From the NCBI GenBank assembly GCA_937976305.1, contig CALJSB010000053.1, forward strand, positions 1-64,000: DNA of 64,000 nt, written 5' to 3'. The position numbers and the translations under genes were made by a program. A model generated the notes under the pieces. The model had not been told where the DNA came from and made no database searches. It was given only the letters and a program-made list of their open reading frames with translations. This DNA is from an uncultured Acidimicrobiales bacterium (lineage in GTDB: Bacteria; Actinomycetota; Acidimicrobiia; Acidimicrobiales; SZUA-35). This document shows, in pieces, positions 52,841 to 64,000 of the stretch (position 1 is the first letter of the stretch; each line of letters starts with the position of its first letter).

Positions 52841-53851
52841 CTAACGCAGTAGTGATTTGCGGCTGCTGCCGAACATCACCAGAGCGGTGCCGGCGGCAAG
52901 CAGCCACAGGCCACCAAGCACGAAGACCGACGTCTCAGCGCCCGTCACCGGCAGCGTTGGCTGGTCTGTCGTTGGCTGGTCCGACGTGGGACTCTGCTGC
53001 TGCGGGGCGTCCGGGTTGAGCGGCGCCTCTTCGTCTGGGCAGTCGGGGTCGGTTGGGTCGACTGGGGTGCCGTCTGCGTTGGTTGGGCAGGCGGGTGCCT
53101 CTTCCTGTGGGCAGTCGGGGTCAGTCGGATCGACTGGGGTGCCGTCCGCATTGGTCGGGCACGCCGGCGCCGGTGGTGGGTCGGGATTCAGCGGCTCTTG
53201 CGGGCAGTCGGGGTCGGTTGGGTCGACTGGGGTGCCGTCAGCGCCCGTTGGGCAGGCGGGTGCCTCTTCGTCTGGGCAGTCGGGGTCGGTTGGGTCGACT
53301 GGGGTGCCGTCCGCATTCGTCGGGCACACGGGAGCGTCAGGCGCCGAGGTACAGATCGTCACCTCGCTCGCATTTACCGAGTGGGGGCTGACCTGATCGG
53401 TCTCGTTGGGACGGTGTGCGGCACGAACTCCCACGGCTGGTGCGGTGAGGGTGACGGTGCCGAGTGGGCCAACCCACTCGCCGGTCTCAACCATGTCGGG
53501 CACGTCGGTGGTCGGCGCTGAGGTACCAACAACGCTGCCATCGGCTCCGATGAACTCGACGACCCAGATCTCTGAGGTCTGGGTGACGTCGACTCGGGAT
53601 GGGTAGCTGTCGGTCGAAATGGCTTCAGGAATGCTCACCTCGCCTGCTGGCAGATCAACCGGAATGGTTGGAGTGACGGGGAACGCCGGATTGAGCAAGT
53701 TGTGCCCGATCGAATCGATGGCGCCGCCAAATTGGACGGTGGTGCAGGTCTCGCCTTCGGTCTGCGCTGACGCAGCTCCGGCGAAGCCGACCAACGTGGC
53801 GCTGATGACTGCAAGCGCGGCAAGCGCTCGAAGAAATGAGGACCGATGCAC
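52841..53851 (-). CDS. Secreted repeat protein with LPVTG sortase-type C-terminus
   Basis: Signal peptide VHRSSFLRALAALAVISATLVGFAGAASA; four copies of CPTxADGTPVDPTDPDCP; C-terminal LPVTG-hydrophobic-SSRKSLLR. Confidence 0.85.
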   Translation of the reverse strand: MHRSSFLRALAALAVISATLVGFAGAASAQTEGETCTTVQFGGAIDSIGHNLLNPAFPVTPTIPVDLPAGEVSIPEAISTDSYPSRVDVTQTSEIWVVEFIGADGSVVGTSAPTTDVPDMVETGEWVGPLGTVTLTAPAVGVRAAHRPNETDQVSPHSVNASEVTICTSAPDAPVCPTNADGTPVDPTDPDCPDEEAPACPTGADGTPVDPTDPDCPQEPLNPDPPPAPACPTNADGTPVDPTDPDCPQEEAPACPTNADGTPVDPTDPDCPDEEAPLNPDAPQQQSPTSDQPTTDQPTLPVTGAETSVFVLGGLWLLAAGTALVMFGSSRKSLLR

Positions 53852-54051
53852 TACAAAATCGCTGCTGGTTTCTGGAAGACCAGAATTGAGGGAAAAAGTC
53901 ACGAATATGCCTCCACTCGCTGTGCCCAATTCGGACACTATCCGCACGCAGCGTGAGCAACGAGTCCGATCTGACGATGTCACGAAGTTTTGGGTGCGGA
54001 GCGCGGTTGTCGCCACTTTGGGTGGCAGTGACGCCACTCTTTGCCGGTTCC

Positions 54052-60702: not shown

Positions 60703-63348
60703 ATGGCAGATCAACAGAGTCGACCCAGTGATGATGGCGAGAGCCAGTCCCGGACCTGGGAAGCGTTTGCGAGCGAAACCGGCGAGTTGTCCGGTCATCG
60801 CATCGAAACGTATCGAGCACCGGCGAGCTCATGGGATGAGCGTCATCGTCGGCGTTTGGCACAAAGCGCGGCGATTCCCGGCCTCCTGCCGGTCATCGCA
60901 GCCCAGCGCACCAATGGGATGGCCGAGGTCGTGTATTTCGCGCCCGAGACGGCCTCGCTTGAGCAGCGCCTGAGCAGCTCGGCACGTTTGCCTTGGTACG
61001 AGGCGACCGGTGTCGTCTCTGCGGCAGCGCTCGGTCTTCATGCCGCCCACCTCGACGGGCTGGTGCATGGCGCCTTGACGGCGTCGGACGTGCGGATCTA
61101 CGGCAACAGCGTGGCCATCGCTGGCGCTGGCGCTGGCCGAGGCGGGCTTGTGCCGGCAGATCGTCGGAGTGTCGTTGCTCCAGAGGTACTTGCCGACGAG
61201 GGTGTCACCGCCCGCTCAGACGTGTATTCGCTTGGTCGCCTTCTCGAGCGCTCGATCCAAGGTCAAGCCAACGTGCCCGAAGAGGTGAGTCGTCTTGTGC
61301 GCCGGTCGATCGCTCCGCTTCCGGGAGATCGTCCGGTCTCTGCTCGCTTTTTTGCCGAAGGGCTCAATCGCGCCTCCGGTCGTCGACAAAAGAACTTCGG
61401 ACTTGCCGACCTGGGAGCAACTCCCGACTTCCAGCGGGCGTCGTCGGCCTATCGACCAGCTCCCATTCGTAAGCCCAATGTGGCACCAGCTCCTGTGTCG
61501 ACCTCAGAGGACGCTGGGGGTACAGCGGGAGCTGAGGCGAACACAGCGGGAGCTGAGGCGACCTCAGAGGTCGCTGGGGGTACAGCGGGAGCTGAGGCGA
61601 ACACGGCGGGAGCTGAGGCGAACACGGCGGGAGCTGAGGCGATCACGGCGGGAGCTGAGGCGAACACAGCGGGAGCTGAGGCGAACACGGCGGGAGCTGA
61701 GGCAAACACGGCGGGAGCTGAGGCAAACACGGCGGGAGCTGAGGCGAACACGGCGGGAGCTGAGGCGAACACAGCGGCAGGTGGTGTGCCGGCAGTCGAT
61801 GGCGTTGATTCCAGCGAAGGAGCATCGGGTGCTGCCGTTGCTGGCGCCGCGGGACTCGCTGGTGCAGCGGGTCTCGGAGCAGCAGCGCTGTTCGGCAAGC
61901 GCGACGACGCTCTCGAGATCAAACCACACGACGCCTCGGCGGTTGATGCCGGTGTCGAAGGCGCCGCTGGCAAGGTTTTGAGCGGTTCTGGCGACGCCTT
62001 GCATGACGATCTTGAGGTCGATGATCTCGAGGTCAGTGATCTCGAGGACAGCGAAGTGGGCGTTGACGGGCTGACAACTGCCGAGTTCGATGCGAGCCTC
62101 GATCCGGATACAACCGTCATCGAGGAAGTGCCGCTGACCACTGCCGCGACGCCCGCCGACCTCAACCCAATGGAACGCCCTGAGATTGCCGACGCTCCGC
62201 CACCAGATCGGCCACCGGTTGCAGCAGCCAATGACAAGGCGGCGCCGGCAAGCAAGCCGGGGCGAGACGTGGTTTCAGCCTCGCAAACAACGGAGAACGA
62301 GCGCGGCAAGCGAGCCGGTTGGCTATGGGCTGGCGCGGCCGTTGCCGGTCTTGCTGCGGTGACCGCACTGGCGATCTACACCAGCGACGATGGCGACGAC
62401 AACGACTCCGTCGCTGTCACCACGACTCAGGCTCCGACGGCGACTCAGGCTCCGACCACAACCGAGGCTCCGACCACGACTGAGGCTCCGACCACGACTG
62501 AGGCTCCGACCACGACCGAGGCTCCGACCACGACCGAGGCTCCGACCACAACTGAGGTCACGCCAGCCGAGCCCGAAGAAAGCCCATTGCTCTCGAATGC
62601 ACCGCTCGATGCTGAAGTCGCTTCATCAAGCTTTGAAGTGGTCCATGCCGTCCCGGGGTTTGATGCCGATTTGTATCTCGACGGGATGCTCCTCGCGGCC
62701 GGTGTGAGCCCCGGAGCAGTGCTGAGTCCGATTCCGCTCGAAACCACCGGGGAGCTCCAACTCTTTGCCGCCGACGTGAGTGCGCCAACCGACGCAGCGG
62801 ATCGACAAGATGAACCGGTTCTTGTCTCTGATCTCGAAGTGGCCGAGCCTGGCACCGTTGTTGCCCACCTCGATGGTGACGAGGCGGTCCAGGTGTCTAT
62901 CTTCGGCAATGATCTCAATCCGGTTCCGGCCGGTCAGGGACGACTCGCTCTTCATCACGCTGCCGCCGTGGGGCCGGTCACGATCAATCTCGACGGAACC
63001 GACGTTGCAGAGGGCGTCGATGTTCTCGACAGCTTGGTCACCGATGTCACGGCTGGCTCACATCTCGTGCGGGTCACCACCGAGGACGGCACAACCATCT
63101 TTGACGAGACCGTTGACGTTCCGGAAGGTGAACTCACCGCGGCCTTCGTCGGCGGAAACGACGATGAAGTCACCGTGACGGTCCGACGAGTCACCGGGCT
63201 TGAGTCTGCACCGGCAGCGGTTGACAGCGGCGACTCCGGTCTTCTGAGCGACGAGATTCCCTGGGTGGCAGTGGTGGCCCTTGCCGGCAGCCTCACCCTT
63301 GGAGGCGTCGTCCTCCGCCGCCGGTTCGAGGAGCCCGCCGAAGCGTGA
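60703..63348 (+). CDS. Pseudokinase - Ala/Glu repeat - TM - Thr/Pro linker - DUF4397-like - TM protein
   Basis: Kinase-like VAPEVLADEGVTARSDVYSLGRLL with HGALTASDV in place of HRDLKPxN; TM GWLWAGAAVAGLAAVTALAIY; (TEAPTT)n; VVHAVPGFDADLYLDGMLL; C-terminal TM. Confidence 0.85.
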   Translation: MADQQSRPSDDGESQSRTWEAFASETGELSGHRIETYRAPASSWDERHRRRLAQSAAIPGLLPVIAAQRTNGMAEVVYFAPETASLEQRLSSSARLPWYEATGVVSAAALGLHAAHLDGLVHGALTASDVRIYGNSVAIAGAGAGRGGLVPADRRSVVAPEVLADEGVTARSDVYSLGRLLERSIQGQANVPEEVSRLVRRSIAPLPGDRPVSARFFAEGLNRASGRRQKNFGLADLGATPDFQRASSAYRPAPIRKPNVAPAPVSTSEDAGGTAGAEANTAGAEATSEVAGGTAGAEANTAGAEANTAGAEAITAGAEANTAGAEANTAGAEANTAGAEANTAGAEANTAGAEANTAAGGVPAVDGVDSSEGASGAAVAGAAGLAGAAGLGAAALFGKRDDALEIKPHDASAVDAGVEGAAGKVLSGSGDALHDDLEVDDLEVSDLEDSEVGVDGLTTAEFDASLDPDTTVIEEVPLTTAATPADLNPMERPEIADAPPPDRPPVAAANDKAAPASKPGRDVVSASQTTENERGKRAGWLWAGAAVAGLAAVTALAIYTSDDGDDNDSVAVTTTQAPTATQAPTTTEAPTTTEAPTTTEAPTTTEAPTTTEAPTTTEVTPAEPEESPLLSNAPLDAEVASSSFEVVHAVPGFDADLYLDGMLLAAGVSPGAVLSPIPLETTGELQLFAADVSAPTDAADRQDEPVLVSDLEVAEPGTVVAHLDGDEAVQVSIFGNDLNPVPAGQGRLALHHAAAVGPVTINLDGTDVAEGVDVLDSLVTDVTAGSHLVRVTTEDGTTIFDETVDVPEGELTAAFVGGNDDEVTVTVRRVTGLESAPAAVDSGDSGLLSDEIPWVAVVALAGSLTLGGVVLRRRFEEPAEA
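61501..61790 (+). repeat. Coding tandem repeats: 60-bp duplication and 21-bp TAGAEAN units (11 TAGAEA copies)
   Basis: 61501-61560 and 61561-61620 are near-identical; followed by iterated acagcgggagctgaggcgaac. Confidence 0.92.
62451..62558 (+). repeat. 18-bp coding repeat (APTTTE x6)
   Basis: gctccgaccacnacnGAG repeated six times. Confidence 0.92.
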
Positions 63349-64000
63349 AGTTCGTTGTCGTTGTCTCCGTCCTGACGGCTGGCTTGGCTGCCATTGTTTC
63401 GACGCTCTCCGAAACACATGTGTCAGAAGCACCGCTAGCGGCGGAGACCGTCTCAGCTGCCGGCGATATGTCCTCTTCCGGCACAGAACGAGCGCCGGAG
63501 ACAACGCTGCGTTCAGGGCCACCCACCAACAGCGATGGATCAGGCGACACGGCCGCGCCGGAAACGACCCTCCTCTCCGATCCTCCGGGCAGCACCCTCG
63601 TTCCCGTAGACGGGCACGACCTTCAGATCGCCGAAACCGGTGTTGTTCCACTCCGTATCCGAGTCGAGCAACTCGACATCGATCTCGACGTGCTCAGTGT
63701 CGGCGTCGACGATGAGGGGGACTTCGACGTGCCAAGGTCAGGTATTGGCTGGTACGAGCACGGGTCTGCTCCGGGCGAGGTCGGCTCCGCGGTCCTCGCC
63801 GCTCATGTCGACTTCGGAGGTGCACCCGGAGCCTTCTTCCAGCTCGAGACCCTGGTGCCAGGCGACGTGATCGAGATCGATCTGAGCGACGGGTCAATAC
63901 AGGCATTCGAAGTCGTGGATCAGGTGCTGTACGACAAGGTGGCGCTACCAGCTGACGAACTGTTCGATCGTTCCGGCGATCCGCTGCTGCAGTTGATTAC
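63345..64000 (+). CDS. Class F sortase, truncated at the window end before the catalytic Cys
   Basis: GTG start overlapping the upstream TGA (gtga); no stop to the window end; RIRVEQLDIDLDVLSVGVDDEGDFDVP...IGWYEHGSAPGEVGSAVLAAHVDFGGAPGAFFQLETLVPGDVIEI...DPLLQLIT. Absent from the ORF track because it has no stop in the window. Confidence 0.85.
   Translation, partial: MKFVVVVSVLTAGLAAIVSTLSETHVSEAPLAAETVSAAGDMSSSGTERAPETTLRSGPPTNSDGSGDTAAPETTLLSDPPGSTLVPVDGHDLQIAETGVVPLRIRVEQLDIDLDVLSVGVDDEGDFDVPRSGIGWYEHGSAPGEVGSAVLAAHVDFGGAPGAFFQLETLVPGDVIEIDLSDGSIQAFEVVDQVLYDKVALPADELFDRSGDPLLQLI

Follow-up and report, generated by a model that had tools for sequence, protein, structure and literature searches.

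How is a protein that starts like a kinase inside the cell and ends like a surface protein outside it related to the sortase encoded directly downstream? This question is raised by the last two genes of the window, by which we mean the whole 64,000-nucleotide stretch of DNA analysed here, from an uncultured Acidimicrobiales bacterium. A preliminary description of the sequence had proposed a transmembrane pseudokinase that controls either its own exported domain or the sortase. We consider it probable that the genes form a two-gene module, in which the surface protein is the substrate of its own dedicated class F-like sortase and becomes a link between cytoplasm, membrane and wall with a pseudokinase scaffold. 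The features are listed below, all on the forward (+) strand.

60703–63348 (+), bitopic protein of 881 amino acids (open reading frame list; orthologues in 33 of 39 family genomes)
60739–61440 (+), pseudokinase domain, residues 13–246 (AlphaFold, Foldseek and profile alignment to StkP/PknA)
61063–61092 (+), degenerate catalytic loop VHGALTASDV, with HGALTASD in place of HRDLKPxN (StkP/PknA alignment)
61117–61137 (+), degenerate DFG region IAGAGAG (DFG-Asp position Gly in 29 orthologues, Tyr in 2, Asn in 1 and Ser in 1; the motif's Gly in 33/33)
61174–61191 (+), retained APE motif VAPEVL (invariant in 33/33 orthologues)
61525–61777 (+), AEANTAG-type linker encoded by a 21-bp tandem repeat, 12.2 copies (tandem repeat finder)
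62320–62376 (+), first transmembrane segment, TM1 (hydropathy and flanking charge across 33 orthologues)
62419–62557 (+), Thr/Pro/Glu stalk encoded by an 18-bp tandem repeat, 7.7 copies (tandem repeat finder)
62635–62982 (+), DUF4397 domain (PF14344), residues 645–760 (Pfam match and model)
63220–63246 (+), candidate sorting motif VDSGDSGLL (orthologue tails; low-pLDDT linker in the model)
63259–63345 (+), hydrophobic helix and Arg-rich tail RRRFEEPAEA, the hydrophobic part being 63259–63315 (model and hydropathy)
63345–64000 (+), class F-like sortase of 247 amino acids, ending beyond the window at contig position 64088 (NF033748 and PF04203)

The 881-amino-acid protein thus runs, from N to C terminus, through a pseudokinase, a disordered linker, TM1, a Thr/Pro stalk, a DUF4397 region and a putative C-terminal sorting signal. 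Structure prediction, which the preliminary description had named as the check on its kinase assignment, recovered a kinase fold for the N terminus: the AlphaFold model (pLDDT 95.6, pTM 0.92; alignment of 24 family relatives) has PknB, PknG and PknA as its nearest solved folds in Foldseek (PknB, E = 8e-10). The Pfam Pkinase match is sub-threshold, at 12.1 bits against a cut-off of 31.7, and covers residues 158–192. In the model only two strands precede helix αC, in agreement with the missing Gly-rich loop, and the activation segment is shortened to 15–18 residues from the DFG position to APE. The three landmarks on which the pseudokinase claim had been built (VHGALTASDV, IAGAGAG and VAPEVL) lie at the positions given above, and the profile alignment to StkP/PknA sets HGALSPDD opposite HRDLKPQN. 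Across the 33 orthologues the HG of the catalytic loop is always kept, and the position of the HRD Asp is occupied by Ala (23), Ser (8) or Gly (2). No relative restores the HRD Asp or the DFG Asp (0/33 each), and the 33 orthologues share no conserved Lys in β3. From these lost motifs, the domain is predicted to be catalytically dead.

Loss of every catalytic motif is the one point in favour of a chance fusion or a functionless, degraded kinase, a reading that conservation makes scarcely credible. The protein occurs in 33/39 genomes of the same Acidimicrobiales family (named relatives are metagenome-assembled genomes of uncultured Acidimicrobiales), so the architecture, which the preliminary description had put forward for a search among relatives, is family-wide rather than a one-off. 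The His, Gly, APE and structural D and R residues are invariant across the 33 orthologues, and dN/dS of the kinase domain is 0.02–0.15 in six pairs, in which dS is often saturated. The invariant residues and the low dN/dS together indicate that the N-terminal domain is, as judged from sequence, a maintained pseudokinase and not a decaying kinase. A match to the antiphage MAD6 kinase was rejected as generic kinase similarity (25 bits, cut-off 460). The earlier suggestion that the domain senses lipid II or a PASTA-kinase partner found no support, because a Pfam scan detected no PASTA domain in the protein and no FHA, phosphatase or kinase gene, PASTA kinases included, is a conserved neighbour among the complete loci.

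The neighbour that is conserved is the sortase. An intact sortase gene directly follows the pseudokinase gene in 29/29 full-length loci, with a 4-base (−1) overlap in 21, and it is the sole neighbouring gene common to all complete loci. In the window its GTG start overlaps the upstream stop codon (GTGA at 63345–63348), as first described. Together with the family-wide occurrence and purifying selection, this takes the gene pair beyond chance. The enzyme extends 88 bases past the window, and its catalytic Cys motif LITCGG begins at the window edge. The truncated part matches NF033748 at E = 2.6e-26, by far the best class among the NCBIfam sortase models, and scores 47.5 bits against the Sortase family PF04203 (cut-off 26.6). 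The whole protein scores 127 bits against NF033748, below the curated class F cut-off of 166, which makes ‘class F-like’ the more cautious term; the sortase reported in the same operon is there, and its assignment to class F falls short of the curated score. The catalytic His (AAHVD/AGHVD) and the TCGG Cys are present in 29/29 sortases. Another sortase occurs in the same genome (loci L118/L204): a second, canonical class F enzyme, directly downstream of a signal-peptide protein that has the tail GGVAAGGGGTS-TM-Arg, resembles CHRD proteins and has no Pfam match at E ≤ 0.001.

Between the pseudokinase and the exported part, TM1 indicates the likely topology. Basic residues precede it and acidic residues follow it in most of the 33 orthologues; the pseudokinase should therefore be cytoplasmic, with the N terminus inside. 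This segment, the kinase fold and the lost catalytic motifs bear out the proposal of a transmembrane pseudokinase. The 539-residue N-terminal part lies ahead of this sole internal membrane segment, and no cleavable signal peptide was recognized. Signal peptidase might nonetheless use the small, AXA-like residues that follow TM1 in some copies (TALA in the window), in which case the pseudokinase would be released or lost inside the cell, the outer half would be a normal wall protein and the N-terminal half would serve only secretion or the regulation of synthesis. We think this improbable, as these residues vary between orthologues (WALLRSGG and WQLFNGD are examples) and strong purifying selection acts on the kinase domain. 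Beyond the stalk, the DUF4397-like region of the preliminary description proved to match PF14344 just above the Pfam gathering cut-off (31.0 versus 30.6 bits; 36.6 bits in the genome search), and the exported part is modelled as two β-sandwich-like domains, mostly with pLDDT above 90, of which DUF4397 is the first. On the other side of TM1, the 21-bp linker repeat (61525–61777, 12 copies) is apparently peculiar to the genome of the window and likely to be length-variable. A further protein of this genome (L037, contig C76, 5482–7324) has tandem DUF4397 repeats and a signal peptide, with no sorting tail; its C terminus looks like a different repeat domain.

The C terminus suggests what the sortase does with its neighbour. 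Complete orthologues all end in [P/D][TSA]G[NDT][SGA][GN]L with an invariant Gly, followed by a hydrophobic stretch and an Arg-rich tail, so that the C-terminal motif, hydrophobic stretch and basic tail of a sortase substrate are all present. The usual motif of the family is VP[TS]G[ND]SGL, from which the VDSG of the window's copy deviates; canonical LPXTG is absent from both the window's tail and the family motif. In the model of this exported half the motif sits in a low-confidence linker between the β-sandwich domains and the terminal helix, as expected for an accessible sorting signal. The NCBI sorting model GVDTG_CTERM (NF058571, cut-off 29 bits) is matched weakly by 8/23 orthologue tails, at best with E = 3.2e-4, and not at E ≤ 1 by the tail in the window. 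What had been called a second transmembrane segment (63259–63315) is indeed hydrophobic, and is most likely the hydrophobic part of this sorting signal rather than a second membrane pass. Read in this way, the tail makes the DUF4397 protein a probable substrate of the sortase and not its controller, and the earlier idea that the pseudokinase controls the exported domain or the sortase changes accordingly. A canonical anchor occurs elsewhere in the window: a secreted protein at 52841–54037 on the reverse (−) strand has ACPTNADGTPVDPTDPDCP repeats and an LPVTG anchor, so this genome has LPXTG-type substrates besides the non-canonical tail.

A comparison of class F sortase loci across the phylum, comprising 92 non-redundant loci after de-duplication, places this tail in a wider pattern. 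At 68 of the 92 (69/98 in a looser count), the gene immediately preceding the sortase on the same strand encodes a protein with a C-terminal transmembrane segment and basic tail. In 56 of these 68 partners the pattern [TA]G.[GS][GSP] precedes the membrane segment; 200 shuffles gave 10.2 on average and never more than 21. An extended tail pattern occurs in 54 partners compared with 2.6 in shuffles. LPXTG was rejected as the sorting motif of class F partners (2/68 match). Among control tails 5/34 match the motif; of the five, four appear to be genuine partners that lie at another position within a class F locus. Partner domains include DUF4397, CHRD and ice-binding-like domains, and several partners match GVDTG_CTERM; the existence of that model means that the general sorting tail is already known, and our literature search found no paper naming a tail of this type. 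One partner, from a large actinobacterial genome of approximately 9 Mb (L173), carries GGVHTGGGALA three times internally as well as a terminal motif. A 2026 study (PMC13251363) calls the roles of class F sortases unknown and reports, beside two of them, proteins with a signal peptide, a transmembrane segment, a basic tail and no recognisable pentapeptide that might be substrates. That suggestion becomes directly testable through the phylum-wide pairing and the [TA]Gx[GS][GSP] tail. The one class F sortase studied biochemically, from Propionibacterium acnes, is described as a housekeeping enzyme where it is cited in PMC13251363, and on that description class F specificity is probably not uniform.

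These comparisons bear on two further explanations. The protein could be an ordinary two-pass membrane protein that regulates the adjacent sortase through its pseudokinase or its exported domain, with the sortase acting on other substrates; the tight operon (29/29) and a C-terminal helix that the model allows as a plausible membrane segment would both fit. We nevertheless hold this to be fairly unlikely, because unrelated partners (CHRD and ice-binding-like) carry the tail pattern too, the position of the motif, in a flexible linker ahead of the helix, is the one expected for a sorting signal, and kinase-free DUF4397 proteins with a signal peptide (SP-DUF4397 proteins) share the same tail and adjoin sortases of the same clade. 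In a tree of 110 sortases, the family enzymes and the SP-DUF4397-linked sortases of Acidimicrobiales form one clade (99/98), which stands apart from most other class F enzymes. Alternatively, the sortase might link the tail to another protein in a pilus-like manner and not to peptidoglycan, making the pseudokinase protein the base of a surface polymer. Pilus sortases do typically form dedicated pairs with their substrates; however, conservation at the locus does not extend to a second, pilin-like substrate, and the sortase resembles class F and not class C. We regard a pilus-like role as unlikely.

The kinase-free pairs suggest how the fusion might have arisen. Two genomes of the same family (G019 and G038) encode a signal-peptide DUF4397 protein without a kinase next to a class F-like sortase, the remaining four lack both DUF4397 and a class F sortase, and kinase-free SP-DUF4397 and sortase pairs occur in other families as well. 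Outside the family, profile searches of 149 genomes of the phylum and 118 of the order returned only generic or other kinases; the architecture is therefore family-specific as far as sampled. Because SP-DUF4397 partners occur elsewhere, the pseudokinase appears to occupy the place at which a cleavable signal peptide normally stands. The simplest history would be that an SP-DUF4397 substrate and sortase pair came first, and that the pseudokinase, linker and TM1 then replaced the signal peptide. One family sortase (L047) groups with the signal-peptide type, and the tree leaves the number of replacements unfixed. Another transmembrane kinase-like protein, with HGDL or HGSL for HRD and GFG for DFG, is found in genomes of approximately 2 Mb from family f73 (L217 and L218); it adjoins a sigma-factor-like gene and might be a stand-alone MviN-type (ActPs3-like) protein.

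Known systems resemble parts of this arrangement. As in the actinobacterial pseudokinase ActPs3 of Mycobacterium tuberculosis MviN (PMC12599244), all three motifs are degraded, the activation segment is shortened, and a C-terminal transmembrane segment leads to an exported domain; this likeness is one of anatomy, in related features only. In contrast to MviN, our protein has no MurJ fusion; outside the membrane it carries DUF4397 and a sorting tail, and its partner is a sortase. The best MurJ match in the genome is a 560-amino-acid frame, too short for a MurJ–pseudokinase fusion. EssB/YukC of type VIIb secretion, a scaffold, likewise combines a cytoplasmic pseudokinase, one transmembrane segment and an extracytoplasmic part (PMC12599244), but has no sorting signal or sortase, and differs in exported domain and genetic context. 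Pairs of a class F sortase and a GVDTG_CTERM-type partner (NF033748 and NF058571) share the gene order, the kind of C-terminal tail and the enzyme superfamily; such partners usually bring a cleavable signal peptide and lack any cytoplasmic domain, whereas here there is a pseudokinase with TM1, and their GGVxTGxGG contrasts with VP[TS]G[ND]SGL. The SP-DUF4397 pairs of other Acidimicrobiales families are alike in exported domain and sortase clade, with tails VNTGNSP or VPTGNSG, and lack the pseudokinase. The locus thus works like a sortase–substrate pair from which three defining features are missing: an LPXTG motif, a cleavable signal peptide and a curated class F score. No pseudokinase family in the review (PMC12599244) is described with a sortase, and our literature search, in line with the preliminary description, found no paper that joins a pseudokinase to a sortase.

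Returning to the two-gene module, the sortase likely acts on the adjacent pseudokinase protein, and from the features above we infer the cleavage, the wall attachment and the existence of pseudokinase partners. On membrane insertion, the pseudokinase would be cytoplasmic and DUF4397 outside. The adjacent sortase would cut after the T/S of the motif and join the new end to a peptidoglycan precursor. As TM1 takes the place of a cleavable signal peptide, the product, assuming that TM1 is retained, would be anchored twice, through TM1 in the membrane and through its C terminus in the wall, a covalent link from cytoplasm through membrane to wall. More speculatively, the pseudokinase could, in the manner of MviN, be a non-catalytic docking platform, with a Hanks kinase or an FHA protein among the conceivable partners, and docking could couple the envelope state or growth sites to the wall-attached domain. 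This scaffold step draws on precedent, because the bacterial pseudokinases of known role, MviN and EssB/YukC, are scaffolds (PMC12599244), and by that analogy the product could plausibly be a lasting strut that carries a pseudokinase scaffold. The full proposal, that the sortase permanently staples a membrane-retained pseudokinase protein to the wall as a covalent strut coupling wall growth or tension to the scaffold, we advance tentatively, as a possibility with somewhat less than an even chance.

The interest of the locus lies in a conserved fusion and, separately, in class F sortase substrates becoming testable. We found no earlier description of a sortase substrate that retains a cytoplasmic pseudokinase across a membrane segment; such a protein would tie cytoplasmic signalling machinery to the wall and, if the strut is real, would represent a form of envelope-spanning coupling that is new for bacteria lacking an outer membrane.
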